From: Cypionkella aquatica
GTDB lineage: Bacteria > Pseudomonadota > Alphaproteobacteria > Rhodobacterales > Rhodobacteraceae
Length of the DNA: 64,000 nucleotides
Direction of reading: 5' to 3'
Assembly: GCF_030161095.1 (NCBI RefSeq)
Contig: NZ_BSPP01000004.1
Span: forward strand, 124,001 to 188,000
Shown here: positions 23,483-40,157 of the stretch, piece after piece
Layout of the letters: the number at the start of each line of letters is the position of its first letter
Position numbering within the stretch: position 1 is the first letter of the stretch
Notes under the pieces: generated by a model
Database searches by the model: none
Seen by the model: the letters and a program-made list of their open reading frames with translations, nothing else
Told to the model about the DNA's origin: nothing
Made by a program: the position numbers and the translations under genes

Positions 23483-23600
23483 AAAAAGTCGCCCAGCCAA
23501 GGTGGCCGGGCGGAAGGTCCAACAGGGAGGTAATCTCCAAGATATACCACAGAATACCGCCGTTTGGCTCAGACTGTTACAAATTCCCGTCGGCATGGCT
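23483..23600 (-). ncRNA. candidate small RNA A (CCTCCCT core plus terminator), downstream of hemP
   Basis: Read on the minus strand: a hairpin (23547-23528; GGTA and ATCT pair with AGAT and TACC around one bulge), then single-stranded CCTCCCTGTTGGACC (23530-23516), then a 10-bp stem (23512-23503 with 23499-23490, one G-T wobble) and TTTTT (23487-23483). The same 15-base core and the same order of parts occur at 39273-39343. CCTCCCT can pair with Shine-Dalgarno sequences, as in CcsR-type RNAs of Rhodobacter. The 5' end is a guess; the RNA could be cut from the hemP mRNA, which ends 47 nt upstream of this interval. Confidence 0.6.
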
Positions 23601-23646
23601 TTTTCGCCACAACCCGAGATTGCGCCATCGCCGCACAGGGATCCGA

Positions 23647-23829
23647 TCACTTGGTCAGGATCAGCTTTGCCGATTTGGTGATGCGCAAAGTGTAAATCTG
23701 GCCGTCCAGCTCGATATAAGCCGTCCCCGCCCCCCCAGTCAGCGCGCGGGCGTCGTAACGCAGGGTACGGTCGGATGCGACGGGTTCCGGCGCGGGGGCC
23801 ATAGGCGAAAGGATCTTGGTTTCGAACAT
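23647..23829 (-). CDS. hemP: hemin uptake protein HemP
   Basis: HemP family, 60 aa. The conserved C-terminal half is intact: DARALTGGAGTAYIELDGQIYTLRITKSAKLILTK. In related bacteria HemP is strongly induced by iron limitation and in some acts as an activator of the haem receptor gene. The ATG at 23829 has CGGAG upstream; an open frame 12 codons longer lacks support. It stands apart from hmuV (193 nt) with its own upstream region carrying the motif at 23922-23949, so it is probably a separate iron-controlled transcript. Confidence 0.9.
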   Translation of the reverse strand: MFETKILSPMAPAPEPVASDRTLRYDARALTGGAGTAYIELDGQIYTLRITKSAKLILTK

Positions 23830-23921
23830 CGGGTTGCTCCGCAGCAGCTGGTTGCAGGTGATCACTGGCTTCCCTGATGCGGGTGGCTTGGCGTTGGGAT
23901 TAACCTATCAAATTGGTCGGG

Positions 23922-23949
23922 ATTGTAAATCCTGATTCTTTTACTTAGC
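23922..23949 (-). promoter_or_regulatory. shared iron-locus motif upstream of hemP
   Basis: Plus-strand ATTGTAAATCC, T, GATTCTTTT, A, CTTAGC. Apart from one inserted base and small end differences, the same sequence occurs at 37926-37952 upstream of the imelysin operon, in the same orientation to its gene. Read toward hemP it contains a -10-like TACAAT and an imperfect dyad around GAATC/GATTT. It lies 93-120 nt upstream of the hemP ATG. Probably an operator (Irr-, RirA- or Fur-type not distinguishable by eye) overlapping a promoter. Confidence 0.55.
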
Positions 23950-24021
23950 TTTAACAATCATCATTTGAGCCTGCTTTTTCCCGGCAGCGCCCGACGTTCC
24001 AAACCTGATCTGCTGCCTAGC

Positions 24022-24798
24022 CTAACCCGCCACAGCCTGCGGCAGCAGCCAAGTGCCACTGGCTGGCAGGGCATTGGTGCGAATCGGGCAACCATAGGCG
24101 CTGGAAAGCTGGGCATCGGTCAGCACGGCCTCGGGTGTGCCAGCGGCAACCAGGCTGCCCTTGGACAGCAAAGCCAAGCGGTCGGCAAACATCGCTGACA
24201 GGTTCAGATCATGCATCACGGCGATCACGCCTCCGCCCGCATCGGCAAAGCGCCGCGCCAGTCGCATCACTTGCAACTGATGCCCCAGATCAAGGCTGGC
24301 GACCGGTTCATCCAGAAACAGCCAGCGCGCCGCGCCATCGGCCACCGGGTTCCAGACCTGCACCAAGGCGCGGGCAAGCTGCACGCGCTGACGTTCGCCG
24401 CCCGACAGGTCCTGATAATTGCGGCTTGCGTATTGCAGCAGATCTACCTCTGCCAAAGCCCGCTGCGGCAGATCGCGGTTTTCAGCATGTTGGCCCATGC
24501 TGAGGCCAAGCTGGATCACCTCCAGCACGGTGAACGGAAACGCCAGCTGTGTTTCCTGCGCCATCACCGCGCGGATGCCCGCCAATTGCCATGCCTTGGC
24601 GCGCGCCACATCCAAGCCGTTCAGGCTTATCTTACCCTGACAGGCAACCTCACCCGTCATTGCCCGCATAAGGGTGGTCTTGCCCGAGCCATTCGGCCCG
24701 ACAATCGCCGTCAGCGTGCCGGGGCGTGCGGTCAGGCTGACATCGCGCAGCACCGGGCGGCGGCCAAGTGCCACCGAAACATCTTCAACGATCAGCAT
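24022..24798 (-). CDS. hmuV: haem ABC transporter ATP-binding protein HmuV
   Basis: ATPase of the haem importer, 258 aa, on the cytoplasmic face. Walker A GPNGSGKTT, signature LSGGERQRVQLARAL, Walker B RWLFLDEPVASLD and H-loop AVMHDLNLS are all intact. It starts 3 nt after the hmuU stop and is the last gene of hmuSTUV. No terminator is visible before the hemP promoter region. Confidence 0.95.
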   Translation of the reverse strand: MLIVEDVSVALGRRPVLRDVSLTARPGTLTAIVGPNGSGKTTLMRAMTGEVACQGKISLNGLDVARAKAWQLAGIRAVMAQETQLAFPFTVLEVIQLGLSMGQHAENRDLPQRALAEVDLLQYASRNYQDLSGGERQRVQLARALVQVWNPVADGAARWLFLDEPVASLDLGHQLQVMRLARRFADAGGGVIAVMHDLNLSAMFADRLALLSKGSLVAAGTPEAVLTDAQLSSAYGCPIRTNALPASGTWLLPQAVAG

Positions 24799-24801
24799 CG
24801 C

Positions 24802-25869
24802 TTACAACCCCATCAGGCCCTGACGCCGTATCAAAATCCACAAGAACACCGGAGCGCCCAGCAATGCCGTCACAATACCGATCGGCAATTCGGCGGGGGC
24901 TACGATGGTGCGGGCGATCATATCCGCCGCCAAAAGCAGGCTAGCGCCCAGAAGGGCTGCGTTGATCAGCAGATAGCGGTGGTTCGGCCCGGTCGAGATT
25001 CGCAACAAATGTGGCACCACGATGCCGATAAAACCGATGCCGCCCGAAACTGCCACGGAAGCACCCGTTGCCGCTGCCACCGCAAGGATGGTCAACCGCT
25101 TCAACCGCTCAATCTCAATGCCCAGATGCGCGGCTTGCGCCTCGCCCAGCGCCAATGCGTTCAGGCCGCGCGCCATCAGCGGCGACAGCAGCAGCACAGG
25201 CAGGATGAACGGTGCCGCCGACGCGATCTTGCCCCAACCTGCCCCCGCAAGCGAGCCCATGCCCCAGAATGTCAGATCGCGCAGCTGGCGATCATCGGCC
25301 AGATAGACCAGCACGCCGATCACAGCACCGCCCAAAGCCCCCAATGCGATACCCGCCAACAGCATGGTCGCCACCGAAGTCTGACCGCCACGCGTCGCCA
25401 CGCGGTAAAGCAGTAATGTTGTAACCCAACCGCCCACAAAGGCCGCCACAGGCACCAGCTGGCCGCCGAAATGCACAGCGATGCCTGCAGGCAGCAGCCC
25501 GCCCAACACAATCGCCATCACTGCCCCAAGCCCTGCCCCCGCGCCAACCCCAACAATGCCGGGATCAGCCAAAGGGTTGCGGAACAGCCCTTGCATCAGC
25601 GCGCCAGAAACGGCCAAGGCGGCTCCGATCAGCATGCCCATCGCCAGACGCGGCAAGCGGATGTTCCACAAGATCACCTGATCGCGCTGCGAAAGCTGCC
25701 TTTGGATCACGGCATCGCCCAGATCAAGCAGCGACAGCCCAGCCGCCCCAGTGCCCAAAGACAGCACCGAAACCGCCAACAGCAGCACGATCAGCAGCTT
25801 TGTCATCAGGGCGGCGCGCGCTTCGCGGTCGTCGCCCGCCATCACCCGCACCATGCCAAGCGACACCAT
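24802..25869 (-). CDS. hmuU: haem ABC transporter permease HmuU
   Basis: FecCD/BtuC-family inner-membrane permease, 355 aa, with about ten membrane segments. Conserved parts are LPRLAMGMLIGAALAVSGALMQGLFRNPLADPGIVGVGAGAGLGA and the later GGIGFIGIVVPHLLR, followed by FLWILIRR at the end. The ATG at 25869 has GGAGG 7 nt upstream, preferred over the internal MTKLLIVLLL start. It follows hmuT by 12 nt. Confidence 0.95.
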   Translation of the reverse strand: MVSLGMVRVMAGDDREARAALMTKLLIVLLLAVSVLSLGTGAAGLSLLDLGDAVIQRQLSQRDQVILWNIRLPRLAMGMLIGAALAVSGALMQGLFRNPLADPGIVGVGAGAGLGAVMAIVLGGLLPAGIAVHFGGQLVPVAAFVGGWVTTLLLYRVATRGGQTSVATMLLAGIALGALGGAVIGVLVYLADDRQLRDLTFWGMGSLAGAGWGKIASAAPFILPVLLLSPLMARGLNALALGEAQAAHLGIEIERLKRLTILAVAAATGASVAVSGGIGFIGIVVPHLLRISTGPNHRYLLINAALLGASLLLAADMIARTIVAPAELPIGIVTALLGAPVFLWILIRRQGLMGL

Positions 25870-25881
25870 GTCAGCCTCCTC

Positions 25882-26745
25882 TCAACCCGCCTTGGGATAG
25901 AGCGCGTCGTACAGCGCATGAGCGGCATCGGGCGTGCGTGGGCCAAAGCCCAACAACATCATGCCATCCATTCGCAGAATTGCCCCGGCCTGTGCCGCAG
26001 GGGTCTGCGACAGAGTCGGATGCGCCATCACATCCGCGTTGTTGATCGCAAGATCACCCTCACGGTCCATCATCAGGATCAGATCGGGTGCGGCGGCCAA
26101 AACCGCCTCATCCGTCATCTGCTTGTAGCCCTGAAACCCGCTCGCCGCATTGACGCCCCCTGCCAAAGCGATGATGCCTTCTGCCGAAGAGCCTTCGCCC
26201 CCCGCCATCAAACGCCCACCTTGCAGTGACAGCACAAACAACACGCGCTTTTTCACGGGCACAGCAGCGGCGCGGGCCTCGGCTTCGGCCAGACCAGCCT
26301 GAACCTTGGCGGCCAGTGCATCACCTTCGGCCTTGCGACCCAAAGCGTCAGCCACTGCGTTGATCTTGGCAACCACACCCGCCGGGGTCGGATCGCCCGG
26401 CATCCGCAGGAACGGCACACCTGCCGCGTTCAACACATCGACCGCCGCCGGAGGGCCAGCATCCGCCTCGGCCAAGATCAGATCGGGGGCGACTGACAGC
26501 ACACCTTCTGGTGAAAGCCCCCTGATATAACCGACATCGGGCAGGCCAGTGACCTGCGCGGGGTAATTCGAGGTCGAATCCCGCGCCACCAACAGGTCGC
26601 CAGCCCCCAAAGCCACAGCAATTTCGGTGACCGAGCCGCCAAGCGTCACGACCCGTTTGGCATCCTCGGCCACCGCTGGAGTGATCAGCGCGACTGAAAC
26701 AGCCAGCGCCAGACCTGCCCGCAGAGAATTCAAATTCAACATCAT
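25882..26745 (-). CDS. hmuT: periplasmic haem-binding protein HmuT
   Basis: Haem ABC transporter substrate-binding protein, 287 aa, with signal peptide ending ALITPAVAE (about residue 27). RVVTLGGSVTEIAVALGAGDLLVARDSTSNYP and LPDVGYIRGLSPEGVLSVAPDLILAEADAG are typical; the Tyr in GYIRGLS is the usual haem ligand in this family. Its ATG overlaps the hmuS stop as ATGA; a second ATG follows at once (26742), so the N terminus is certain within one residue. Confidence 0.95.
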   Translation of the reverse strand: MMLNLNSLRAGLALAVSVALITPAVAEDAKRVVTLGGSVTEIAVALGAGDLLVARDSTSNYPAQVTGLPDVGYIRGLSPEGVLSVAPDLILAEADAGPPAAVDVLNAAGVPFLRMPGDPTPAGVVAKINAVADALGRKAEGDALAAKVQAGLAEAEARAAAVPVKKRVLFVLSLQGGRLMAGGEGSSAEGIIALAGGVNAASGFQGYKQMTDEAVLAAAPDLILMMDREGDLAINNADVMAHPTLSQTPAAQAGAILRMDGMMLLGFGPRTPDAAHALYDALYPKAG

Positions 26746-27797
26746 GCCAGCTCCGCCTCAAGCGCCGGAAGCGCTGTCACGAAGGCATCCCATGCCACCG
26801 GCGGCGCATCTTTGCGATAGCCGAAGATCTGCAGGATCAAACCGCCCTCGGCATCAAAGGCCTCAATGGAAATCGCATCGCCGCGCTGCGTCGGCTTGAT
26901 CACGCGCCAACATTCGGCGATGTGATCGGCACGCAGATGCAGGTTGAAGCGCGGGTCCATTACATTGATCCAAGGCCCCATCGGCACTATTTTTTCGACC
27001 ATCCCGCCATGAATCTGGATACAGCCCGCGTTGCCAACAAAGATCATCAGCGGAATCTTCTGATCAGCCGCCGCATGCAGAACCTGCGTGATCGCATCGC
27101 GCGCAATCGGTGCAGCAAACGGCGCACCAACCATGCGGTTCGCGCCCAGACGGTTGAACTTCAACCGATGTGTCAGGCGCAGAAACTGATGCGTGTCGGT
27201 CATCGCCTTCCATTCGGTGCGCAATTCTTCAAGCCGTGCCGCGTCGCCCTTCGGGCCTTCAACCGGGGCGCGCGCAGTCAAGGTCAGGCTGCCCGACTGT
27301 TCCGGCAGGCGCAGCGCCGCGACCAAAGCATCAAACGCCACGGCATCCGAAGCTGCGTTCAGATGCACCTTGTGCACCGCATCGCCCGCCGCATCGAAGA
27401 CCTGAATACTGCGCTTCGGGCCATCCTCGCCCGCGTCGACCAACGCAAAGCCGAATTTCCAATGGCTGGGGAACATCCGCATATCAATTTCGGAGCCCAG
27501 CACCATCGACGCATGCGCGCCCGAGTGGTAATCCTTGTAGATGCCGCGCCGCTCGTGGACGCAGCTTTCATTGCGGGTCAGCGCCAGCACATCGCCAAGA
27601 TTGCCCAACAGCGGAAACAGCGCATCGGGCGCCGCATTGATCGCAGTGGCAGTATGGCCGACATAAGCCGCCACCAGCTCGGCCTCGGTGATTCCCTGCA
27701 GTGCTGCAAAATCGCGTGCGCGTGCCTTGGGGTTTTCAGCGCGCAAGGCGCGAATCTGCTCGGGGGTATGCGTGCTGGGGGTATGCGTGTTGGCCAT
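26742..27797 (-). CDS. hmuS: haem-degrading/haem-trafficking protein HmuS
   Basis: HemS/HmuS/ChuX family, 351 aa, cytoplasmic. Two related halves are visible: SCVHERRGIYKDYHSGAHASMVLGSEIDMRMFPSHWKFGFALV in the first and IHGGMVEKIVPMGPWINVMDPRFNLHLRADHIAECWRV in the second. The family takes haem from the transporter and in some members releases its iron. First gene of the leftward hmuSTUV operon, divergent from hmuR across 217 nt. The start is preceded by TAGGAT. Confidence 0.93.
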   Translation of the reverse strand: MANTHTPSTHTPEQIRALRAENPKARARDFAALQGITEAELVAAYVGHTATAINAAPDALFPLLGNLGDVLALTRNESCVHERRGIYKDYHSGAHASMVLGSEIDMRMFPSHWKFGFALVDAGEDGPKRSIQVFDAAGDAVHKVHLNAASDAVAFDALVAALRLPEQSGSLTLTARAPVEGPKGDAARLEELRTEWKAMTDTHQFLRLTHRLKFNRLGANRMVGAPFAAPIARDAITQVLHAAADQKIPLMIFVGNAGCIQIHGGMVEKIVPMGPWINVMDPRFNLHLRADHIAECWRVIKPTQRGDAISIEAFDAEGGLILQIFGYRKDAPPVAWDAFVTALPALEAELA

Positions 27798-27891
27798 GCC
27801 AGAATCCTAACGTTTGCAGGGAGGCGCGGGTCTGGCGGGCCGAACGGGCGTGGCTGGAGCGCAAGGGTCCGATATATCTTCAGGGATATAC

Positions 27892-27953
27892 TTGACAGTT
27901 ATAGTCTGGCTTTTTATGAGCTTATTCTTGACAGATCAAGTCGGAATATATTC
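27892..27953 (+). promoter_or_regulatory. hmuR promoter region with two dyads
   Basis: TTGACA (27892-27897), a 17-nt spacer and TATGAG (27915-27920) make a good sigma-70-type promoter toward hmuR. Just downstream lie an inverted repeat CTTGA/TCAAG with a 4-nt centre (27927-27940) and a 10-bp palindrome GAATATATTC (27944-27953). Both are well placed to bind an iron or haem regulator. Which dyad is used, and by what protein, cannot be told from sequence alone. The motif shared by hemP and the imelysin operon is not found here. Confidence 0.5.
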
Positions 27954-28014
27954 TGCCGCCAGCTTGCACCCCGGCAAAGCCAGCCATTTGCAGACCCCTT
28001 AACAAGGAACGCAC

Positions 28015-30129
28015 ATGCTGCCTCGCCGTACACCCGCCCTGCGCGGACAACTTCTGCTATCAACCTTTGCGATTGCCCTGATCGCTGCCCCCGCCGCCGC
28101 CCAAGAAACCCCCGCCGCCGATGACGGCGTATTTCAAATGCTGGGCCGGATGATTTTCGGCGCAGGCACCGCGAAAGTCGCCATCGACACGCCGCAAGCC
28201 GTCACCGCGCTTGAACAGGCCGACATCGACCAAAAGCAACCCAAAACCCTGTCAGACCTGCTGAAAGGCGTGCCCGGCGTGCAGACCGCTGGCGCATCGG
28301 CGCGTCCACTGGGCCAAGCGTTCAACATCCGAGGCATCGGTGCGACCGAGCAAGCCGCCTCGGAAGACCGGATCAAAGTCACCATTGACGGCGCGCCAAA
28401 GTTCTTTGAGGGCTACCGCATGGGCGCATTCTTTGGCGATCTGGAGCTGTTCAAGCGGGTTGAAATTCTGCGCGGCCCAGCCTCGTCAACGCTTTACGGC
28501 ACCGGCACCATCGGCGGCGTCATCGCCTTTACCACCAAAGATGCCAGCGATTTCCTTGCAGATGGCGAAACCACTGCCCTGCGCTTCAAAGGTGATTACG
28601 GGTCCAACGGCGATTCCACCGGCGCTGGCGTGATCTTGGCGCATCGTGCGGGCAATGCGGAATTTCTGGCCTCGCTGCACAAATCTGACAGCGGTGTGCT
28701 GAAAGACGGCGCTGGCAATGACATCCTTGGCACCGAATTTGACGGCACCTCGGCCTTGCTGAAAAGCAAATTCAGTTTTGGTGAGGCCGACGACCAATCC
28801 GTGACATTGTCCTATTCGCGCAGCTCGGCCGATCTGAAAAACACCCAAGTGGTGCAAACCGGCGGCTCGGCGTTCTTCTCGGTCTTTGGTCTGGCCGATA
28901 TCGCCACCACCGACGACACCGCCACCGTCACCTATAGCCACGGCGTCGCGGGCAATGATCTGCTCGATTTGAAGGTGCAACTGTCTTACACCAACACCAC
29001 TGTGGATAAATCCAACTTCCATGACGGTGCGTTCAGTTGCGGTCCGGGCAACCTTGCGATCCTGTGTGACAGCACCTACGGCTATGAAACCTTCGCGCTT
29101 AAGGTCGAGAACACCGCCGATCTGTCCTTTGGCGGCTGGCAGAACTTCCTGACCACAGGTGTGCAATTCACCGAACAGACGCGCACTGCGTCTTCGACTT
29201 CGGGCAACTTCGCGTTCCATCCCGAAGGCAAAGACAGCAAGGTTGGCGTCTATGCGCAGGGTGAATTCACCCTCAATGAACGCTTTGTGCTGATCCCAGG
29301 TATCCGCTTTGACTTCGGCGACCGGGACCCTTCGGCTGCAGTGATTGCGGCGGGCGGGGACGCGACCAATGACACCGCGATGTCGGCCTCTCTGGCGGCT
29401 TTGTATAAGTTCACCGAAACCTTCTCGGTGTTCGCATCCTATTCCACCACCGAGCGGATGCCGACGCTGGACGAACTTTACACCAGCAGCGGCACCCAAG
29501 CGGCAAGCTTTAACCTTGAAAAGGAAAAGGCCGAAACCATCGAGCTGGGCTTCACGGTTGATAAGCAAAACCTGATTTCCGAAGGCGATGTGCTTCAGGT
29601 GAAAGCCACTGCTTTCCACAACGATCTGGAAGACCTTATCACCCGCAACACCGGCGCGCCTGCTGGCACCGCTTATTATACCAACATCGGCAAAGCCGCG
29701 ATCTGGGGCGCTGAACTGGAAGCCTCTTATGATGCCGAGCGTTGGTTCGCCTCTGCATCATGGAGCAGCGTCAAGTCGCAAAACCGCGTCACTGGCGCGC
29801 AACTGGCTGAAACACCTGCGGAAAACGTATCGCTGTCCTTGGGCATGAAATTGCCAGAGCAAAATCTGACACTCGGCTGGCGCGGTTATTACTTTGACGA
29901 AATCAGCACTGGTGCAGCAACCACGACGGGCAACGCGCTGGCGGGCAAATCCTATGACACCCACGATCTGTTCGTGGCGTGGAAGCCGGATGAAGGCGCT
30001 TTGCGCGGTCTGGAAGTCAACTTCGCGGTCGAGAACATGTTCGACAAAGCCTATATCAACAACCTCGCCTTGGATAACGGCGTTGGCCGGAACTACAAAA
30101 TCTCGGTCGCCAAGTCGGTGACTTGGTAA
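28015..30129 (+). CDS. hmuR: TonB-dependent haem receptor HmuR
   Basis: Outer-membrane TonB-dependent receptor, 704 aa. Signal peptide ends [10 protein letters not shown]. The plug domain includes [22 protein letters not shown] and [26 protein letters not shown]. The barrel ends in the expected aromatic residue (SVAKSVTW). The haem-receptor FRAP/NPNL region appears as [37 protein letters not shown]. Start preceded by AAGGAA. Its stop overlaps the exbB start as TAATG, so it is cotranscribed with exbB-exbD-tonB. Confidence 0.95.
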
Positions 30130-30923
30130 TGCGCAAACTTGGCGCTCTTATCATAGGGGCGGGCCTTCTGGCCCCCCCTGCTTTTGCCCAAGGCCTTGCC
30201 TCGGATCTGGCTGCGCCACATGCGCCCAGCACTGATCTGTTCAGCATCATCCTGTCTGCGCATTGGGTCGTGCAGGCGGTCATGGTGATGCTGGCCGTGG
30301 CAGCCTTTGCGGCGCTGACCATCATGGTGCAGAAGATCGCCGAACTGACGCTGGCCTTTCGCGCCCTGCGCCGCTCTGCCCAACAGCTGACCACCGCGAC
30401 CACGCTTGCCGCAGCCGTGCGCGGCCTGCACGGCCAGCGCGATGCAGCCAGCCAAATGGCGCGCGTCGCCGCCGATGAATTCGCCAACCTGTCCGAATTT
30501 CCCACCGACTCCGCCTATGCGCATGCCGCCCAACAGCGCACCCGCCTTGCGATGGACCGGATCGAGGCCGGGGCCTTGGCGCGTCTGCGCGCAGGGTCGG
30601 GGTTGCTGGCCTCTATCGGGGCGACCTCGCCCTTTATCGGGCTGTTCGGCACCGTGTTCGGCATCATGAACGCCTTCCTTGCGATTGCCGAAACCAAGAC
30701 CACCAGTCTGGCCGTCGTCGCACCCGGCATTGCCGAAGCCCTTTTCGCCACCGCCATCGGCCTGCTGGCTGCGATCCCGGCGGTGCTGATCTACAACGGC
30801 CTGTCGCGCGCGGTCATCGCCTATCGCCGCAAGCTGGCCGATTCCGCTGCCCAGATCGAGCGTCTGCTCAGCCGCGACATCGACCGCCGCCACGCTGCAC
30901 AATCCCCCCAAACCACGGGCTAA
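30129..30923 (+). CDS. exbB: ExbB-type proton channel protein
   Basis: MotA/TolQ/ExbB family inner-membrane protein, 264 aa. It has an N-terminal signal-like segment ([17 protein letters not shown]), an extra periplasmic stretch, then three membrane segments; [26 protein letters not shown] and [27 protein letters not shown] carry the conserved channel residues. It energises TonB with ExbD. ATG at 30129 overlaps the hmuR stop. A dedicated Ton system for the haem receptor is indicated by the operon. Confidence 0.93.
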
Positions 30924-30926
30924 AAC

Positions 30927-31373
30927 ATGGCGATCACCCCCAGCACCAGCCGCGATGACGAAGATGATGCGATGGCCGATATCAACGTCACGCCATTTAT
31001 CGACGTGATGCTGGTGTTGCTGATTGTGTTCATGATTGCAGCCCCGCTTTCGACCGTGGATGTGCCGCTGAACCTGCCGTCATCCTCAGCAGCCGCGACC
31101 GAGCGACCCGAAGATCCGGTCTGGCTTTCGCTTGCCCCGGATCTGACGCTGACCTTGGGCAACCAGCCCCTAAGCGAGACCGAACTGCAAGCCGCCCTTG
31201 ATGCTCAGACCAAAGGCAAACGTGATGTGCAGGTGTTTCTGCGCGCCGACCGCGTCGTGCCCTACGGCGATCTGATGACCGTGCTGGATCAGTTGCGCAT
31301 GGCGGGCTATCTGAAAGTGGCCCTCGTCGGATTGCAAAGCACCACTGCCGCACCAACGCAGGTGACACCATGA
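30927..31373 (+). CDS. exbD: ExbD/TolR-type energy transducer
   Basis: Single-span inner-membrane partner of ExbB, 148 aa. The cytoplasmic N-terminus and span read [25 protein letters not shown], with the essential Asp in [10 protein letters not shown]. The C-terminal periplasmic domain includes [33 protein letters not shown]. It starts 3 nt after exbB, and its stop overlaps tonB as ATGA. Confidence 0.95.
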
Positions 31374-32323
31374 GCAAACAGTTCCGCAACTGCCCGATGT
31401 CCTGCCCAATTGCCGCCGCAGCGCAACCGCAACGCGCGTGGCTCAGCTGGACGCTTTCGGCGACCACGACCGCGCTTATCCTGAGTGCGGCCAGTGCCTT
31501 GGCGCTGACCTCTCATTCCACGCCCATCATGGATCAGCCGATTTACCTGACCCTGCCGCCCGCTCCCGCTGCCGCCGAAAGCGTCGCCGCGATGACCGAC
31601 CCCGCCCCGGTTGCCAGCGCCGAGGCCCCGCCCCAAACCGCCGCAGCCCCGCCGGATGCGGCAGAGCCCGACACCGCTCCTGATCTGCCGCCCGCGCAAC
31701 CGCTGGCCAAGCCCAGCCCGCCCGACATGCCAAAACCCAACACCTTGGCCGATGCCAAACCTAACCCGGACACCGCGCTGCCGCTGCCCGATCCCTTGCC
31801 CACCCCCGACGCGATGCCCGCAGCAGCCAAGCCTTTGCCAATAGAAAAGCCACCAGAGCCTGCAAAGCCAAAGCCTGCAAAGGCAAAAAAGCCGGCGAAG
31901 ACTGCCGATAAGCCGAAAAAGGCTGATAAAAAGCCCGCCAAAGCTAAGACCCAGAAATCCGACGAACCGGCCCCGAAGAAAACCACCAAAGCCGATGCGT
32001 CGGCCCCAAGTGCGGGGGGTGCGACGGCCGCAGTAAAGGGCGCAAAAGCAGCGGCGCAGGGGCAATCCCCGGCAGCTTACCAGAAAGCTGTGATGAAAAA
32101 GATCCGCGCCACCAAACGCCCGACCAGCCCCGGCAAAGGCATCGCCGTTGTGGGCTTTGCAATCTCGGCAAGTGGTGGTCTGTCGGTGGTGAAAATCGTG
32201 AAAAGCTCGGGCAATCCGGCGCTGGATTCCGCCGCAGTCAGCCATATCAAACGCTCGGCCCCGTTCCCGGCCCCCCCCGCTGGCACCTCGGCGCGTTATT
32301 CGTTCGAGTTTGTGGGAAAATAG
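31370..32323 (+). CDS. tonB: TonB energy-transducer protein
   Basis: TonB family, 317 aa. It has a short cytoplasmic start, one membrane span (about residues 24-45), a long Pro-rich segment and then a Lys/Ala/Pro-rich segment (about residues 150-215) that crosses the periplasm. The C-terminal domain SPAAYQKAVMKKIRATKRPTSPGKGIAVVGFAISASGGLSVVKIVKSSGNPALD is typical of TonB. Last gene of hmuR-exbB-exbD-tonB; it ends 2 nt from the convergent DUF1513 stop. Confidence 0.92.
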   Translation: MSKQFRNCPMSCPIAAAAQPQRAWLSWTLSATTTALILSAASALALTSHSTPIMDQPIYLTLPPAPAAAESVAAMTDPAPVASAEAPPQTAAAPPDAAEPDTAPDLPPAQPLAKPSPPDMPKPNTLADAKPNPDTALPLPDPLPTPDAMPAAAKPLPIEKPPEPAKPKPAKAKKPAKTADKPKKADKKPAKAKTQKSDEPAPKKTTKADASAPSAGGATAAVKGAKAAAQGQSPAAYQKAVMKKIRATKRPTSPGKGIAVVGFAISASGGLSVVKIVKSSGNPALDSAAVSHIKRSAPFPAPPAGTSARYSFEFVGK

Positions 32324-32325
32324 CC

Positions 32326-33396
32326 TTAAGCCAATGCGATCAAGTGGTTATCCCACAAAGTCGCGTTGCGGCTCAGCGGCATCAAACCAGCGTGACCATA
32401 GCCCCAAACCCCGCCCTGCCCATCGGTCAACCGCAAGTCATCGCCCACCGCCGCCGCTCCCGAAACATCGGCGCGCTGATCTGTTGCCAGCCATTGCCCT
32501 GCCCCATTAAACAGCATCACCACCCCCGCCGGGGCCGAGGTCAGCGCGATCAGATCGCTCGCACTACTGACCGCAATCGAGCCTGCATATCCTTTCATCG
32601 CATATGCCTGATCATCAGGGGGCGGGCAAAGCACGGGGGCAGCCCCCGGCACCCACAGGCCCAGTTGCGCCACAGGCTCGAACGGATCGCCTTCCCACTG
32701 CATCGCAAACGCCACGCCGTCGCCCAGCAGCGCCAGATGCCGGATCGAATTTTGGTGCAGCGCGTCTTCCAGTTCCACCTGATCCAGCAGTGCGCCTTCG
32801 GGCGAGAGCAAACTCAGGTTGGGTCGCATCACATCGACATTCAGCTTGGTGCGGTCGCCGGGGTCGGTTTCAATCCCGCCATTCGCCACCACGATCCGGC
32901 CATCCGCCAACCGCCTGATATCATGCGGGCCAATGCCGTGGCTGTCCCATTCAGCGATCCGAGTGAACGCCGCAGTCTCCCACAGCCCAATCCGCCCCGC
33001 CGAGCCTTCCGCCACCACCTCAGATGTCATCAGCAAGCTGCCATCCATCGAAAACGCGCCATGGCCGTTGAACTGCCGCCCCTCAGGTGGGGTCAGTCGG
33101 TGCCGCGTCACCCCGGTCAGACAATCCAGCACCAAGGCAAAGGTGCCCGGACGCCGCGCGAAGGCCACCGCCAATGCCTGTGACGGATGCGCCGCCGCCG
33201 CGTGGCCGCGCGCGGGTAAGCCAATCTCGAACAGGCTATCACCCGCCGCACTTAGGCCATGCAGCACAAAGTCATCGCCCAGTTTACCCGCCGCCAGAAA
33301 GGCTGGCGAGCCGACCTCGGCCCAAGACACCCGCGGCAAGCTGGCCGCCGACAAGCCAGAGGCCAGCCCCGCCAGAAATGCCCGCCGCGTCGCCAT
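32326..33396 (-). CDS. DUF1513 family protein, probable Tat substrate
   Basis: DUF1513 beta-propeller-like protein, 356 aa. The N terminus MATRRAFLAGLASGLSAASLPRVSWAE has a twin-arginine signal, so the folded protein is likely exported. Inside are propeller-like strands such as FNGHGAFSMDGSLLMTSE and HGIGPHDIRRLADGRIVVANGGI. Family members sit with imelysin and di-haem proteins in iron-limitation operons; function unknown. Start at 33396, 1 nt past the stop of the preceding gene. Last of five genes in the operon. Confidence 0.87.
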   Translation of the reverse strand: MATRRAFLAGLASGLSAASLPRVSWAEVGSPAFLAAGKLGDDFVLHGLSAAGDSLFEIGLPARGHAAAAHPSQALAVAFARRPGTFALVLDCLTGVTRHRLTPPEGRQFNGHGAFSMDGSLLMTSEVVAEGSAGRIGLWETAAFTRIAEWDSHGIGPHDIRRLADGRIVVANGGIETDPGDRTKLNVDVMRPNLSLLSPEGALLDQVELEDALHQNSIRHLALLGDGVAFAMQWEGDPFEPVAQLGLWVPGAAPVLCPPPDDQAYAMKGYAGSIAVSSASDLIALTSAPAGVVMLFNGAGQWLATDQRADVSGAAAVGDDLRLTDGQGGVWGYGHAGLMPLSRNATLWDNHLIALA

Positions 33397-33397
33397 G

Positions 33398-34384
33398 TCA
33401 GTCACCATCCGCCGCGTTAAAGCCGATGCCGACGTCCAATTCAGGCCCAAGCTCGGCCAGCACCGTGATATCCAGCGCCGCGATGGCTTGCTGCAAAATC
33501 TCGACCTTCAGGCGTCCTCCGGGTGTAGCAACACCCGCGAAAACCGGATCATTCAAGCTCTTGGCCTGCGTGATGGCGCGGTCAAAGCCTGCCAAGGTCT
33601 GCGGCGCATCCGGGGTCAGCGTTACCACCATCGCGCGCAAAGCTTGCAACGACAACAAGACGTTGCGCAGACTGCGACCCGAGGCCACCGCCTCGGCGCG
33701 CTCGGGTCGCGGCTTGTCGAACGTGCCCAGTGGCCGCGCCAGCCGCTGATCTTTGTCAAACTCCAGCCCCGCCACGATCTGAGTAAACATCACCTGCCGC
33801 ACCTCTGGCCGGGTCTGATAAGTCGTGTTGCCCGCCGCACCAGCCGTCAGCACGGTTTTGGCATAGCCGTTCAGCCAAGCCTCATTGATCTGATGCGCGA
33901 TACGGGCCAGATCCAGCGTGGTGGCGCGGATCAAATCGCACGGGTCGGCGGGCAAAGGCTCTGCCGGATACAGCAGACGCTCCAGCCCGGTCAGGCCGCG
34001 CGCCGCCACCGATTGGTCGGGAAAATGCGCGGGCGTCAATTGCAACGGATCGCCCAACAGCAAGCCGCGCTGCGCCTTGGCACCCGAGCCTTTCGGGTCG
34101 GGCCAGAACGCAATCGCCACCGAATGGCCATCTGCCTCTGCCGGACCAAAGCGCAAATGCTGCACGCCCAACCAAGCATCATAGGCGGCATTGAAGCCCG
34201 GCTTCAGCCCCTCAGCCTTGCAGTTTTGCGCCGCTTCATCCGACAAAGCCTGCGTCGCCGCCGCAAAATCGGCATAGCCGGGCAGAATATGATCGGAAAC
34301 CGTCTGCTCAAAATCCGCCAAAGCCGGGGTGGCGCAGATCGGCAAAGCACAGCACAGCGAAAGCAGTATTGGGCGCAGCAGCAT
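33398..34384 (-). CDS. imelysin family protein with altered GxHxxE motif
   Basis: Second imelysin-like (M75) protein of the operon, 328 aa, with signal peptide MLLRPILLSLCCALPICATPALA, so periplasmic. The family motif GxHxxE appears as GLTGLE (Gly130, Thr132, Glu135): the His is replaced by Thr, while IrpA in the same operon keeps it. FGPAEADGHSVAIAFWPDPKG and FNAAYDAWLGVQHLRFG are typical of the shorter imelysins that accompany di-haem proteins. Probably iron-related rather than a peptidase. 2 nt downstream of the di-haem gene. Confidence 0.87.
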   Translation of the reverse strand: MLLRPILLSLCCALPICATPALADFEQTVSDHILPGYADFAAATQALSDEAAQNCKAEGLKPGFNAAYDAWLGVQHLRFGPAEADGHSVAIAFWPDPKGSGAKAQRGLLLGDPLQLTPAHFPDQSVAARGLTGLERLLYPAEPLPADPCDLIRATTLDLARIAHQINEAWLNGYAKTVLTAGAAGNTTYQTRPEVRQVMFTQIVAGLEFDKDQRLARPLGTFDKPRPERAEAVASGRSLRNVLLSLQALRAMVVTLTPDAPQTLAGFDRAITQAKSLNDPVFAGVATPGGRLKVEILQQAIAALDITVLAELGPELDVGIGFNAADGD

Positions 34385-34386
34385 GA

Positions 34387-35895
34387 TTACAAACTTTCAA
34401 GAAAAGCGATGATGGCGTCACGGTCGTCTTTCGGCAGCGCCACCACGGCGTCGCGGCTGGCCTGCGCCTCGCCACCATGCCACAGCACCGCTTCCAGCAG
34501 ATTGCGCGCGCGCCCGTCGTGCAGAAACTCGGTGTGACCCGAGACGTGCGCCGTCAAACCAATCCCCCACAGTGGCGGAGTTTTCCATTCGCTGCCCGTC
34601 GCACGGCCCTCGGGGCGGTTGTCGGCCAGCCCCGGCCCCATGTCATGCAGCAACAGATCGGTATAGGGCCAGATCAACTGAAAGCTCTGCTCGGGCTGAT
34701 CTTTCAAGCGGTCGGTGACATATTTTGGCGTATGACAGGACGTGCAGCCGCTGTCATAGAACACCTGCTTGCCGCGCAAAATCTGCGGATCATCGACGCC
34801 CCGACGCTCTGGCACACCCAGATTGCGGGCATAAAATGTCACCAGATCAAGGCTTTGGTGATCTACCTCCAGCCCATCGCGCACGCCGGGCTCTTGCCCG
34901 CTGATGGCCGCCCGACAAGCGGTCTGCGCGGCGGTGCAATCGCCCCAAGGATCGGTGTGCAAAGCGGTGGAAAGCCCCATATCGCCCTGAAACGCCGCCG
35001 CGGATTGATCGCGGATCGCGGCTTTGCCACCTTTGAAGCCAAACCGCCCCAGCATGGGCGCACCATCAGCGCCAGCCGGAACCATGCTTGCGCGGCCCGA
35101 GATACCATCACCATCGGCATCCTCTTCGTCGACCTGCGCCAGAATATCAGCCTCGGGGATCGCTTCCAGCAGCCCCAAGCCGATCATCTGCGGCGCAATG
35201 CGTGGCGACAGCATCACATCGCTCGCCATCGGCCCATACCCCAGATCGGCCACAGAATAGCGCGGCGCGCGCAAAGACACCACGCTGCCATCGGCCAGCG
35301 TCACCGGCACCTCAGTATAATCAATCACCATCCGGCCTTCCGACGCGATCCCGGTCGCGGCGAAATCCTGAAACTGACCGCCATAGGTCGGCTCGTCTTG
35401 CGTCGCCAGCCAATCCTTGATCTCGGCAGGATTGCCGCCCCCCGGCACCGACAGCCGCAGAAACATCGACACAGCGCTTTCCTGCGGCCCCGGCACATGG
35501 CCACGCCCGTCTTTCAAATGGCAATCCTGACAGCCGCGCGCATTGAACAGCGGCCCCAGCCCGTCTGATGCCAAAGTCGAGGCCGGCGACGGCACCCAAG
35601 CCTTGGTGAACAACGCATTGCCAAGGTTGAAATTCATCTGCCGGTCAAACGCCATATTGCCGGAAAACTGCGAGAACGCATCCGCTCCGGGCCGCACCCG
35701 CACCGAGGCAGCTCCACCCGATTTGGCCTCAAACATCTCGGCCTTGCTGAAATCCTGTGGCGCAGCCAGCACCCGCGCGATCCGCGCAGTCTCGGCCGCC
35801 GTGCGCGGGATCACTTGCAACGGCATATCTTCGGGGCCTTGGGCAAGGGCTGGCCCGCCTGCCACCGCCAATACAATCGTCAGGACGCGGCGCAT
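34387..35895 (-). CDS. di-haem cytochrome c family (thiol oxidoreductase-like) protein
   Basis: Periplasmic c-type cytochrome, 502 aa, with signal peptide MRRVLTIVLAVAGGPALAQ. Two CxxCH haem sites: CQDCH (Cys122-His126) and CTSCH at about residue 387. NARGCQDCHLKDGRGHVPG and YDSGCTSCHTPKY are typical of the di-haem proteins annotated as thiol oxidoreductases that accompany imelysin. Its redox partner is unknown. Start at 35895 with AGGGAAG upstream. Flanked by the two imelysin genes in the same operon. Confidence 0.9.
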   Translation of the reverse strand: MRRVLTIVLAVAGGPALAQGPEDMPLQVIPRTAAETARIARVLAAPQDFSKAEMFEAKSGGAASVRVRPGADAFSQFSGNMAFDRQMNFNLGNALFTKAWVPSPASTLASDGLGPLFNARGCQDCHLKDGRGHVPGPQESAVSMFLRLSVPGGGNPAEIKDWLATQDEPTYGGQFQDFAATGIASEGRMVIDYTEVPVTLADGSVVSLRAPRYSVADLGYGPMASDVMLSPRIAPQMIGLGLLEAIPEADILAQVDEEDADGDGISGRASMVPAGADGAPMLGRFGFKGGKAAIRDQSAAAFQGDMGLSTALHTDPWGDCTAAQTACRAAISGQEPGVRDGLEVDHQSLDLVTFYARNLGVPERRGVDDPQILRGKQVFYDSGCTSCHTPKYVTDRLKDQPEQSFQLIWPYTDLLLHDMGPGLADNRPEGRATGSEWKTPPLWGIGLTAHVSGHTEFLHDGRARNLLEAVLWHGGEAQASRDAVVALPKDDRDAIIAFLESL

Positions 35896-36027
35896 CCGGG
35901 TCTTCCCTATATCAGTTGGCACCGCAGCGCTCGCGTGCAAGGCGAAGCGCTGCGCCACCTGCCTACACAGAATGGGTTTCAGCGCCTTATCCCTGCCAAA
36001 AGCAAGCACAAGGCGCTGACAAAGGCG

Positions 36028-37293
36028 TTACTGGAACACCGCCGACGGATTATCAAGGCTGTCCGAGCCTTCGATGCTGGTGCCGCTCAGCCCCAGCACA
36101 GTTATCGCGCGCTGGATCGAGGCCGTTTGCGTGACCAAACCGTTCACCCCGGCCATCACCAAATCTTCACCCTCTTTGTTGCCAGCAGCCAGCATCTGAT
36201 CGTAAGCCATGCCGCCTTCCGATGCCTTTTTGATCGCCCCCAAAGCTGCGACCGACGCATCCAGTTCTGACTTCAACTGAGCATCCACCGCCGGATCAGC
36301 CGCCGCGACCAGTTCGGAAATCGACGCCCCCGACACCACGCTGCCATCAATCCGGGTATATTTGCCAAGATAGACGTTCTGGATGCCAAGGCCGTCGTAG
36401 TAATGGCTGTCTGCAGTGTCGTCCGAGAAGCAATCATGCTCTTCTTCCGGGTCGTTCAGCATCAGGCCCAGACGCATGCGCTGGCCCGCAACCTCGCCAT
36501 AAGACAAGCTGCCCATCCCGGTCAAAATCGCCGACAAAGCCGCCTTGGGGTCGCTTTCAATGGTCGCGCGCGCAGAGCCGCCCGTGGCCCATTGCAGCGC
36601 CATATCGGCCAGATCGGTCACCAGCAAATCCGTCGCAGCCTTCAGATACTCCGCCCGGCGATCACAATTGCCGTTGGTGCAAGCCTCGCCCTGCGCATAA
36701 TCGGTGAAGGCACGGTTGCCCGCCCCCGGCCCGGTGCCGTTCAGATCCTGCCCCCACAACAGAAACTCCACCGCGTGATAGCCCGACGCCACATTGGCCT
36801 CGATGCCCCCCGCTTCTTGCAACGTGCCCGAGATCAGCTCTGGCGTGATCTTGGTCGCATCGACCTCGGTGCCCGAGATCACGAATTTCGGATTGGCGAT
36901 CACGTTCAACGTCGCCAGATCGTTCTCTTCCGACTTGCCATAAGACGGATCAACATAGTCGATCAGCCCCTCATCCAGCGGCCAGGCGTTGACCTTCCCC
37001 TCCCAGTCATCCACCGCCGCATTGCCAAAGCGGAACGCCTCGGTCTGCATATAGGGCGGGCGCGAGGCCAACCATGCGGCGCGCGCGGCCTTCAGGCTGT
37101 CGTCGCTGGGGCTGGAAATCAGCGCATCCACCGCTGCTTGCAGCTCTTTGGCTTTGATCAGGCTGTCTTCATAGCCCGCCGCTGCGATATCCGCATAGGT
37201 CTTTGCAACCGCCGCCGGATCGGCGGCTAAAGCGGGCTGGACAGCCGCCGCGACGGCTGTGGTGGCAAGCAAGGTGAAAAACGCAGGGCGCAT
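36028..37293 (-). CDS. irpA: imelysin family protein IrpA
   Basis: Iron-regulated imelysin (M75) protein, 421 aa, with signal peptide ending QPALAAD; periplasmic or outer-membrane associated. The GxHxxE motif is intact as GYHAVE (Gly171, His173, Glu176) followed by FLLWGQD. AFRFGNAAVDDWEGKVNAWPLDEGLIDYVDPSYG is characteristic, as are four cysteines (CTNGNC and others). IrpA homologues are needed under iron starvation; whether they bind iron or cut proteins is unsettled. The start is preceded by AGGAAAG; 12 nt after the unknown first gene. Confidence 0.92.
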   Translation of the reverse strand: MRPAFFTLLATTAVAAAVQPALAADPAAVAKTYADIAAAGYEDSLIKAKELQAAVDALISSPSDDSLKAARAAWLASRPPYMQTEAFRFGNAAVDDWEGKVNAWPLDEGLIDYVDPSYGKSEENDLATLNVIANPKFVISGTEVDATKITPELISGTLQEAGGIEANVASGYHAVEFLLWGQDLNGTGPGAGNRAFTDYAQGEACTNGNCDRRAEYLKAATDLLVTDLADMALQWATGGSARATIESDPKAALSAILTGMGSLSYGEVAGQRMRLGLMLNDPEEEHDCFSDDTADSHYYDGLGIQNVYLGKYTRIDGSVVSGASISELVAAADPAVDAQLKSELDASVAALGAIKKASEGGMAYDQMLAAGNKEGEDLVMAGVNGLVTQTASIQRAITVLGLSGTSIEGSDSLDNPSAVFQ

Positions 37294-37305
37294 ATGGGAT
37301 CTTTC

Positions 37306-37833
37306 CTAGTGACGCGTGGTTGGATGGGCAGAGGAATTGCCGTGGATCGAAGGGTATGCCGAAAGTTTGTGAATGATATCAAGCGTGGCCCGCCCCACAT
37401 AGCCAGCCGTCAACACGGCCTCATAGGCCACATCGGGCGGCAGCATGGTCAGCGCAAAGGCCATCGCATCTTCGCGGTCGCCCGCAGTGGCAGCCGCCAC
37501 CATCTGCGCAAAGGCACTTTCATCGCCGCCAAGACAGGTGCAAGCGGTATGGTGCCGCATCAAGGGCCGCCGCCCCATCTGCACCATCAGCGAGAGCAGG
37601 TGCGCCAGATGATTGACCTCGATCGCGGCCACTTCCGGGCCAAGGATCGCGGTGAATTCTTCGGCCACGGCAATACGACCTGCCTCGCCATCGCACCACT
37701 GCCGCAGCAGGCGCACAACGCCACGCTCCAGCGGCGGCATATCCGCCAACACCCCCACCGCAGCAGCGCCTCGGGATGGATTGGCTGGGCTTGTGGCCTT
37801 GGCTTTCGATGTTTTGAACCAAGAATAGCTCAT
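37306..37833 (-). CDS. conserved protein of unknown function, first gene of the imelysin operon
   Basis: Protein of 175 aa that I cannot assign. It has no signal peptide or membrane segment, so it is probably cytoplasmic. A central helical part (LERGVVRLLRQWCDG, IEVNHLAHLLSLMVQMG) leads to HHTACTCLGGDESAFAQM. His75, His78, His94, His95, Cys98 and Cys100 could bind metal or haem. The C terminus is polar and His-rich. It starts at 37833 (ATG in TCATGA context); the open frame runs 55 codons further upstream through the shared iron motif and is not used. Leads an operon of irpA, di-haem protein, imelysin and DUF1513, which suggests an iron-related role. Confidence 0.72.
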   Translation of the reverse strand: MSYSWFKTSKAKATSPANPSRGAAAVGVLADMPPLERGVVRLLRQWCDGEAGRIAVAEEFTAILGPEVAAIEVNHLAHLLSLMVQMGRRPLMRHHTACTCLGGDESAFAQMVAAATAGDREDAMAFALTMLPPDVAYEAVLTAGYVGRATLDIIHKLSAYPSIHGNSSAHPTTRH

Positions 37834-37925
37834 GATCTGTCGACTGCCCCTCAAGCCTGTGTGTTGCATCCTAGCGCTGCCACCTTGGGCAGGCGTTTTC
37901 ACATTAACTGACTGATTTAGTATGA

Positions 37926-37952
37926 ATTGTAAATCCGATTCTTTTGCTAGGC
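37926..37952 (-). promoter_or_regulatory. shared iron-locus motif upstream of the imelysin operon
   Basis: Plus-strand ATTGTAAATCC, GATTCTTTT, G, CTAGGC. It matches 23922-23949 near hemP except for one missing base and the last few positions, and both face leftward genes. It lies 93-119 nt upstream of the 37833 start, the same distance as at hemP, and 69-95 nt upstream of the divergent MFS gene, so it could control both directions. Confidence 0.55.
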
Positions 37953-38020
37953 AATCAGCACCACCCGCCTGCGCACCACGCCGCTTGACCCAACACATGC
38001 GCCCGTGCAGTCATGCCGCC

Positions 38021-39244
38021 ATGACCCAAAGTGCCCTCTGGAAGAACCGCAATTTTCGGCTGATGTTCGCCTCGTCGGCGGTAACCAATCTGGGCGATGG
38101 CCTGATCACGGTGGCCGTGGCATGGCTTGCCACCCTCCTGACCAATGATCCTTTCCTGATCGGCCTTGTCGCCACCGCCCGCCATCTGCCGTGGTTTCTG
38201 TTCGCTTTGCCCGCAGGCGTGATCACCGACCGCGTGGATCACCGCCGCCTGATCATCGGGGCCGATTGCCAGCGCTTTGTGCTGTCGCTGGCCCTGCTCA
38301 GTCTGGCCTTGACCGCAACCCCCGGCACCGCGCCCGTGCTGGTGATGGCGGCACTCTCCTTCATCCTTGGCAGCGCCGAGGTGCTGCGCGACAACACCGC
38401 ACAAACCTTCACGCCTTCGGTTGTCGAGAAAACCCAACTGGAACAAGCCAATGGCGCGATGTGGAGCGCTGAACAACTCGCAGGCCAGTTCATCGGCCCC
38501 CCGCTCGCCGGGCTGTTGATCGGCATATCGGTGGCGCTGCCCTTCGGCATCCAAGCCGCAATGCTCGCCGCAGCCATTGGCTTTATCGCCAGCATGACCC
38601 TGCCGCGCCGAGTGCAAACCGCACCGCATTTGCCGATGCGCGCCGCCCTGAAAGAGGGCATGCTTTGGCTCTGGCATGACCTGCCTCTGCGCAGACTGGC
38701 CTTTATATTGGGCGGTTTCAACTTCATCGGCTATGGCTTCGCCGCCGTGCTGGTGCTTTACAGCCAGCGCGTGCTGGGCCTCGATGCTTTTGGCTTCGGC
38801 GTGTTCCTGACCTTGGCGGCTTGCGGCGGGCTGGCGGCGACGCTGATCGGCCCGCGCATCCTGCGCCACATCCGCCCGCGCTCGGCCATCCTGCTGGGCA
38901 TGGCCGGTTTCACAGGCGCTGCTTTGGTCTTGGCCCTGCAAGCGCCCCTTTGGCTGATCGCCATTGCGATGGTGCTGGATGGCTTTTTCGGCATGCTGTG
39001 GAACATCGCGCAAGTCAGCTACCGCCAACGCCACATTCCCGCCCCCTTGCTTGGCCGCGTCAACGCCGCCTTCCGCTTCATCGGCACCGGCCCCGCCGCC
39101 TTTGGGGCGTTCAGCTTTGGCGCGCTGATCTCTTGGGCCGCACCTTGGGGCACTGTCGAAGCTGTGCTCCTCCCATACGCCGTCGCAGCGGCCATCGGCG
39201 GCACGCTGACAATTTACGCCGCCGCCCGCCTGCACCTGCGCTGA
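38021..39244 (+). CDS. MFS transporter, EntS/DHA3-like
   Basis: Major facilitator of 407 aa with about twelve membrane segments. The N terminus ALWKNRNFRLMFASSAVTNLGDGLITVAVAWLA and loop GVITDRVDHRRLIIGADCQR are typical of the DHA3 group that includes the enterobactin exporter EntS. Divergent from the imelysin operon with the shared iron motif between them, so an iron-related export role is possible but unproved. No siderophore genes are in the window. The start is uncertain: no clear Shine-Dalgarno precedes 38021, and an in-frame ATG at 37997 is an alternative. Confidence 0.85.
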   Translation: MTQSALWKNRNFRLMFASSAVTNLGDGLITVAVAWLATLLTNDPFLIGLVATARHLPWFLFALPAGVITDRVDHRRLIIGADCQRFVLSLALLSLALTATPGTAPVLVMAALSFILGSAEVLRDNTAQTFTPSVVEKTQLEQANGAMWSAEQLAGQFIGPPLAGLLIGISVALPFGIQAAMLAAAIGFIASMTLPRRVQTAPHLPMRAALKEGMLWLWHDLPLRRLAFILGGFNFIGYGFAAVLVLYSQRVLGLDAFGFGVFLTLAACGGLAATLIGPRILRHIRPRSAILLGMAGFTGAALVLALQAPLWLIAIAMVLDGFFGMLWNIAQVSYRQRHIPAPLLGRVNAAFRFIGTGPAAFGAFSFGALISWAAPWGTVEAVLLPYAVAAAIGGTLTIYAAARLHLR

Positions 39245-39272
39245 TCTTCTGCACCTGCGCTGATCTCAAGAT

Positions 39273-39400
39273 AAAAAAAGGCCGGGCACAAGGCCCGGCC
39301 AGGTCCAACAGGGAGGGTGCTGTGTCATAACCCCGACACAGCAAGGGGAACTTTTGGCCGCCGGGCGGGGAGGGCGCCGTTTAGCCTGAACCAATAGATA
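39273..39400 (-). ncRNA. candidate small RNA B (hairpin, CCTCCCT core, terminator)
   Basis: Read on the minus strand: a perfect 9-bp stem TGCTGTGTC/GACACAGCA (39343-39318), then CCCTCCCTGTTGGACC (39317-39302), then an 8-bp GC stem GGCCGGGC/GCCCGGCC (39300-39280) and seven T (39279-39273). The last two form a strong intrinsic terminator. The 15-base core is identical to that of candidate A near hemP, with the same order of parts. It lies in the 226-nt gap downstream of the response-regulator gene; independent promoter or 3'-UTR origin is open. The 5' end is approximate. Confidence 0.65.
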
Positions 39401-39470: not shown

Positions 39471-40157
39471 TTAGGCCACCAGCTTGTAGCCGCCATTTTC
39501 CGTCACCAGCAGCCGCGCATTGCTGGGGTCAGACTCGATCTTCTGGCGCAAGCGGTAGATATGGGTTTCCAACGTATGGGTGGTCACCCCGGCGTTATAG
39601 CCCCAAACCTCGTGCAGCAGCACATCACGAGCCACAACACCTTGCTGCGCGCGATACAGGAACTTCAGGATGTTGGTTTCCTTTTCAGTCAACCGCACCT
39701 TCTTGTCCTTCGCATCGACCAGCATTTTCTGTGCCGGTTTGAATGTATACGGCCCCATCTGGAACACCGCGTCTTCCGACTGTTCATGCGTGCGCAATTG
39801 TGCCCGGATCCGCGCCAATAGCACCGGAAATTTGAACGGCTTGGTCACATAATCATTGGCCCCCGAATCAAGACCCAAGATCGTGTCACTGTCCGTGTCA
39901 TGCCCCGTCAGCATCATGATCGGGCATTTCACCCCGGCCTTGCGCATCCGGCGGCACAATTCGCGGCCATCGGTATCCGGCAAACCAACGTCCAAAATCA
40001 CCAGATCAAACAGCCCCGCCTTGACCTTCTCCATGCCTTCGGCACCATTGCGGCCCTCAAACACGTCGAAATCTTCGGTCATCACCAGTTGTTCGCTCAG
40101 CGCTTCGCGCAAATCGTCATCGTCATCAACCAGCAAAATCTTCCGCAAAGTAGCCAT
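39471..40157 (-). CDS. OmpR-family response regulator
   Basis: Two-component DNA-binding regulator, 228 aa. Receiver domain: [14 protein letters not shown], phosphoacceptor Asp in [14 protein letters not shown], and Lys in [10 protein letters not shown]. The winged-helix domain ends [46 protein letters not shown]. No histidine kinase lies nearby, so it is an orphan here. Start at 40157 with GGAGG 9 nt upstream. Transcribed toward candidate small RNA B. The regulated genes are not inferable. Confidence 0.92.

Follow-up and report, generated by a model that had tools for sequence, protein, structure and literature searches.

The 64,000-nt stretch of Cypionkella aquatica DNA analysed here (contig NZ_BSPP01000004.1, positions 124,001 to 188,000; hereafter the window) holds two minus-strand elements, at 23.5 and 39.3 kb, in which the identical 15-mer CCTCCCTGTTGGACC (exact pattern matches at 23530-23516 and 39316-39302) is followed by an intrinsic terminator. 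A terminator scan places the stems at 23512-23490 (10 pairs) and 39300-39280 (8 pairs), with T-runs at 23487-23483 and reaching 39273, respectively. The original prediction had taken both elements for paralogous small RNAs (sRNAs), and they proved indeed to be real and related by a common core-terminator unit. Across the 4.04 Mb genome, exact matches to the 15-mer are limited to these two in the window, and the reversed pattern gives none. With up to 3 mismatches there are 3 matches in the window, which 26 of 100 shuffles equal, so that loose matches are uninformative and the exact ones count. The stretches originally delimited fold better than each of 200 shuffles (z −3.49 for 23.5 kb and −4.13 for 39.3 kb); with more flank the values are −2.73 (2 of 200 shuffles as good) and −3.49 (none). 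Domain search also recovered the neighbouring genes that had been named, hemP (23647-23865, minus strand; PF10636, 54.9 bits, cut-off 25) and an OmpR-type response regulator (39471-40259, minus strand; Response_reg and Trans_reg_C).

The element at 39.3 kb (39273-39348, minus strand) is SorX, an already known RNA and the known half of the finding. It matches RF02784 over the full model (1-73 of 73 at 39348-39274) with 83.8 bits (E 3.6e-19; gathering cut-off 46.6), folds into a 5' hairpin with a 10-pair stem (39318-39343), and lies on the 3' side of the OmpR-type regulator gene on the same strand. In R. sphaeroides, SorX is reported from the 3' untranslated region (3' UTR) of ompR-1 (RSP_0847), with a 116-nt precursor and a 75-nt RNA generated by RNase E (PMC8625941, PMC6238624, PMC9438474). 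It is described as Hfq-dependent and as repressing potA of a polyamine transporter (PMC9438474), while RSP_0847 is described as the essential regulator CenR (PMC9275681). We take the response regulator of the window as the RSP_0847/CenR counterpart, assumed from its SorX neighbour. By analogy, SorX would form the 3'-terminal part of the ompR-1/cenR mRNA; RNase E is expected to cleave it off as a ~75-nt Hfq-dependent sRNA, and this RNA would block translation of target mRNAs in the way reported for potA in R. sphaeroides.

Both elements had originally been likened to the CcsR RNAs. CcsR, or cuckoo, RNAs carry a CCUCCUCCC motif, and the similar Shine-Dalgarno-complementary letters of the core would speak for membership in this group. 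However, the motif CCTCCTCCC has no match in the window, no CcsR-type family is among the Rfam matches for either element, and the 39.3 kb element scores above the gathering cut-off of SorX. SorX is thus the closer relative, and we rejected CcsR membership as very improbable.

For the 23.5 kb element, designated SorX2 in the following, the comparison of related loci is most informative. The genus set comprised 15 genomes, of which 14 have the core and 11, including that of the window, have a readable ompR-xth locus (it is unreadable in G394, G395, G401 and G402). All 11 readable loci have a second core-terminator copy 85 bp to 1.1 kb upstream of xth on the same strand; only homologues of window proteins were sought in these loci, and an unrelated small gene may lie in the wider gaps. 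By synteny, xth, encoding exodeoxyribonuclease III (22576-23364, minus strand, start codon inferred; TIGR00633, 158.9 bits, cut-off 99.05), is the downstream neighbour of SorX2 across the genus. The distance between the two copies varies. They form a tandem pair in G397, G398, G399 and G400, with SorX2 149-191 bp behind SorX, and in G405, where they are 148 bp apart and the core has one substitution, for which reason the pattern search missed it and it was found by reading. The copies of G406 lie 1.4 kb from each other, with an MFS gene between them that is 54% identical to the MFS gene of the window. The copies of G404 are 7.6 kb apart, with a TonB match of 71 aa, an arrangement that may be either a stage or a deletion. 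Finally, a full island of 15.4-15.8 kb lies between the copies in the genome of the window (G000), G247, G396 and G403.

In the window this island spans 23647-39244, as delimited by Pfam and NCBIfam matches and the genus comparison. It contains hemP as its last gene, ABC-type haem uptake genes called hmuVUT from their context, HemS, a TonB-dependent haem receptor (TIGR01785, above cut-off), ExbB, TonB, DUF1513, imelysin, DHOR, a further imelysin and the MFS gene. The imelysin-DHOR-imelysin-DUF1513 set (32326-37293) adjoins the haem uptake genes within the island.

The two-copy arrangement is not confined to the genus. Among 80 named xth loci from outside and inside the genus, 19 have two core copies if one substitution is allowed, and 12 have no core on the xth strand. 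In 13 of the 19 the second copy is without a SorX-like hairpin (L126, L127, L129, L130, L131, L133, L138, L146, L151, L159, L174, L180, L201); 12 of these lie outside the genus, and L130 is the genus mate G406. Both copies have a SorX-like hairpin in the remaining six (L128, L136, L142, L149, L186, L189), which represent a different type of duplication at this locus behind ompR. Since the tandem arrangement is also found outside the genus, we infer that the island is later than the tandem pair. Judged from gene order, SorX2 looks to have stayed beside xth while genes came between it and SorX, with hemP as a later neighbour. SorX2 would thus be the second copy of a tandem duplication with the ancestral order ompR-sorX-sorX2-xth, and the haem/iron island now between the copies would account for its position behind hemP in the lineage of the window.

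The family tests treat the two elements differently. On the 23.5 kb element all Rfam matches stay below cut-off, with 23.5 bits for MmgR, 21.4 for SorX and 19.2 for SorY. None of nine SorX2 copies in the genus loci reaches the RF02784 gathering cut-off, whereas SorX was found in 7 of 7 loci holding it. The core CCUCCCUGUUGGAC followed by a terminator is nevertheless present in SorX2 as in SorX. Profile R1, built on core and terminator, gives SorX2 55.2 bits (E 3e-9), a score obtained with the element itself included in the model; R1 has only 2 base pairs and is in effect a sequence profile. The 13 SorX rows were chosen by hand from the xth locus set.

Structure was compared over 15 second copies. 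The same layout with a 5' hairpin had been claimed for both elements, and this holds for the 39.3 kb element, while the hairpin at 23.5 kb is weak and finds no support over the second copies: 75.5% of cells are paired, reached by 84 of 500 shuffles, and its covariation score is reached by 248 of 500. This hairpin, GGUA..UACC, at first looked convincing from compensatory changes between the window and G247, but failed over the same 15 copies. All hairpin pairs but two are broken in 2 to 6 of the copies, and the two never broken involve the −10-like TGnTA and the core. The terminator pairs (stem 23490-23512) are kept in 99.2% of cells and barely vary. As to the covariation between copies that was to be checked, terminator pairing is kept, but only one pair changed on both sides, which 44 of 500 shuffles reach.

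The core itself is invariant over 43 copies (alignment A3), partly by construction because the rows were found via the core; the better measure is its exactness at genus loci read by position, of which 10 out of 11 carry the 14-mer unchanged and the remaining one differs by a single substitution. This bears on the explanation that the 23.5 kb element is merely a terminator, now serving hemP and earlier a duplication remnant, with the core as a functionless relic. The lack of a conserved 5' hairpin would fit such a relic, but the 14-mer has been kept in this way while its flanks diverge, and blocks upstream of it are conserved as well (see below). We therefore regard a relic as improbable.

Upstream of the SorX2 core, two conserved blocks resemble a promoter region. 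The near block reads ATTCYRTGGTATR, an extended −10-like element (TGGTATATC in the window, 23541-23549, minus strand), which forms a conservation peak, with TGnTA in 15 of 15 aligned second copies. The far block (23594-23623, minus strand), GCAATC-N4-GGTTGTGGCnAAAAAnCCATG, in the window GCAATC..GGTTGTGGCGAAAAAGCCATG, includes an inverted repeat TGGC-N6-GCCA at 23609-23596. Over 15 copies, 11 from the genus together with L126, L138, L159 and L231, conservation exceeds that of every one of 200 shuffles in alignment intervals starting at −98 to −66, −58 to −54 and −38 to −10, but not in those starting at −110 to −102. In a larger set of 27 hand-picked second-copy upstream sequences, TTGTGGCnnAAA is exact in 12 (3 more have one mismatch) and TGGTATR in 10. 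SorX2 therefore seems, as far as can be read from conserved sequence, to have a promoter of its own, with a predicted start about four bases before the CCUCCC seed and a predicted ~50-nt RNA without 5' hairpin that would consist of seed and terminator (23483-23534, minus strand). Transcription would begin just upstream of the seed, so that the 5' end would be the seed CCUCCCUGUUGGAC.

Taken together, the 39.3 kb element is SorX, and we consider it likely that the 23.5 kb element, SorX2, arose by tandem duplication, was separated by the island, and is made from its own promoter as a ~50-nt seed-first RNA. Like SorX, SorX2 would act on Shine-Dalgarno regions; the targets of the two would overlap in part, but their control would differ. 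Several points weigh against this reading. SorX2 falls short of the Rfam SorX cut-off, and its derivation from SorX and not from SorY is read from its position and the ACCT after the core. A sigma-70 consensus scan gives no promoter in the region, which leaves conservation as the argument for one, and kinship among the 15 upstream sequences inflates this conservation by letters shared by descent. Conservation does not exceed the 200 shuffles in the intervals at −62 and at −50 to −42, in the latter of which one would expect a −35 element or an activator site. The SorX2 transcript is a predicted one.

The original prediction also held that both RNAs could be 3'-UTR-derived. On the OmpR side this agrees with SorX as a known 3'-UTR RNA; on the hemP side it is not supported in the same way, as SorX was formerly next upstream and a promoter-like region has been kept. 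SorX2 may nevertheless have become a genuine 3'-UTR-derived sRNA that RNase E frees from the hmu/hemP transcript under iron scarcity. hemP ends ~115 nt upstream of SorX2 on the same strand, and as the terminator scan detects none in the interval, the two may be co-transcribed. In addition, R. sphaeroides is reported to raise the expression of iron-uptake genes, hemP included, when iron is limiting (PMC3413700), and SorX itself is made from a 3' UTR. Processing of SorX is described as reduced in iron-depleted medium in this organism (PMC8625941). However, the promoter-like blocks are also conserved in genomes without hemP at the locus, which argues for selection on them independent of hemP. hemP looks like a late arrival at the locus, and SorX2 probably does not originate mainly from the hemP 3' UTR. 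We thus hold this origin to be possible but doubtful.

Returning to a SorX2 with its own promoter, its regulation may differ between lineages. TTGAT-N4-RTCAA, described as an FnrL site type (PMC4634722), stands at −48 to −50 in 8 of the 27 picked second copies, and in a ninth with 1 mismatch; in these relatives it is centred ~41 bp before the predicted SorX2 start, and it is absent from the window. As a general feature the FNR box was rejected: the strict box together with the core occurs in only 4 of 394 family genomes and is lineage-limited, and in 3 of these 4 it precedes SorX-like hairpins. A TTGAT-N4-ATCAA box directly before a SorX-like hairpin was seen in three other genera (L228, L229, L230). 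Control of SorX2 by CenR was likewise set aside, the conserved upstream block being by eye unlike the motif TGA-N8-TGA published for CenR (PMC9275681). A genome search with the upstream block at up to 3 mismatches gave 2 matches, the sole perfect one at this locus and one with 3 mismatches, against 2 for the reversed control, and no regulon could be read from it. Tentatively, we suggest that SorX2 is an autonomous seed-first mini-sRNA that split from a 3'-UTR sRNA by tandem duplication and gained a promoter, with an FnrL-type box in some relatives and, in the window, where the box is absent and the haem island lies upstream, maybe iron control.

Judged by homology, SorX and, probably, SorX2 base-pair with Shine-Dalgarno regions. 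The seed complement AACAGGGAG followed within N3..10 by ATG occurs 5 times in the genome, and the reversed control 0 times. Named by eye, the genes behind these five sites encode two solute-binding proteins, a polyamine-type binding protein, a secreted protease and a cytochrome c; the polyamine-type protein heads a gene cluster whose translations resemble a polyamine-type ABC transporter. A comparison over 120 genomes gave 25 solute-binding member-family matches among 54 open reading frames (ORFs) for the seed and 26 among 60 for a permuted control, counts that cover the 25 commonest of 65 and 72 partly overlapping families, respectively. Since the permuted control precedes solute-binding proteins about as often, no seed-specific target class emerges. 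Each set comprised 70 loci, which were the first matches listed and not random ones, the control being taken in order; 3 seed loci antisense to the sRNA and 13 (seed) and 10 (control) loci with ORFs below 100 aa were dropped. For the last 40 seed loci, antisense-to-sRNA matches were excluded by eye, as were five more (one contig end, two from the genome of the window, one near-repeat, one doubtful).

The core is widespread in the family. In a set of 394 genomes, roughly one per genus, the 14-mer CCTCCCTGTTGGAC was found in 364, and its reversed control 3 times among the matches listed. In the family loci taken and readable, it usually lies behind ompR, often with xth further on, or in a standalone SorY-like gene. 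The genome of the window has three family copies in total, SorX, SorX2 and one SorY-like copy; the latter (G000:C10:193153-193230, L033) scores 61.8 bits with the SorY model, below the cut-off of 111, stands alone and has perhaps its own promoter. Of 144 alphaproteobacterial genomes, 20 have matches to profile R1. Those in the three family members listed are strong, with E values of 7.1e-8 or below throughout, whereas each of the other 17 genomes has a single weak match (E 6e-6 to 9e-4). In L390-L396, from other alphaproteobacterial families, a CCTCCCTGTnnnACTT-like core (around position 1504) precedes a terminator. RF02784 gives 40-44 bits on L390, L391, L392 and L394, just under the cut-off, and 31-37 on L393 and L396; L393 fits BjrC1505 better (39.7 bits, also below cut-off), and L396 has three such core-terminator places in a row (33-37 bits with SorX). 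The distribution of the SorX type may thus extend past the family, perhaps to the whole class.

SorX2 looks like an apparently undescribed second SorX copy. A literature search found no paper on such a copy, which is weak evidence, as most subscription papers lie outside the search. The Rfam SorX model misses the paralogous set, so that members of the family are undercounted. The path from an sRNA embedded in an mRNA 3' end to an independent sRNA gene can seldom be observed. Here a single genus contains the tandem pair, a pair separated by one gene and a pair separated by an iron island; the seed stays the same or almost the same, and the sequence upstream of it changes. If our reading is true, one could trace in this genus how a 3'-UTR sRNA became independent and was rewired, and the same Shine-Dalgarno-blocking seed may stand under oxygen control in some relatives and under iron control in the window.

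Of the known sRNAs, CcsR1-4 are mentioned in PMC8625941. The CcsR and cuckoo RNAs resemble both elements in having a Shine-Dalgarno-complementary motif, but the motif is a different one. MmgR (RF00519, 'suhB'; cut-off 41) has the CCUCCCU core before the terminator as SorX2 does, whereas the UGUUGG part of the SorX2 core is absent from the MmgR model consensus. SorY (RF02651) is closer: it shares core CCUCCCUGUUGGAC and terminator with SorX2 and, in R. sphaeroides, is reported to be transcribed from a promoter of its own (PMC6238624). It differs by its separate locus and by the letters that follow the core, ACTT as against ACCT in both SorX and SorX2 of the window. The SorY cut-off of 111, which SorX2 misses by far, discriminates poorly, because none of 41 genomes tested reaches it. 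With SorX (RF02784), the 39.3 kb element agrees in hairpin, core, terminator and gene context. SorX2 shares with SorX the core, the terminator and the ancestral locus, but has a terminator stem starting with GCCCGGCC in place of GGCCGGGC, no conserved 5' hairpin, and promoter-like sequence of its own.

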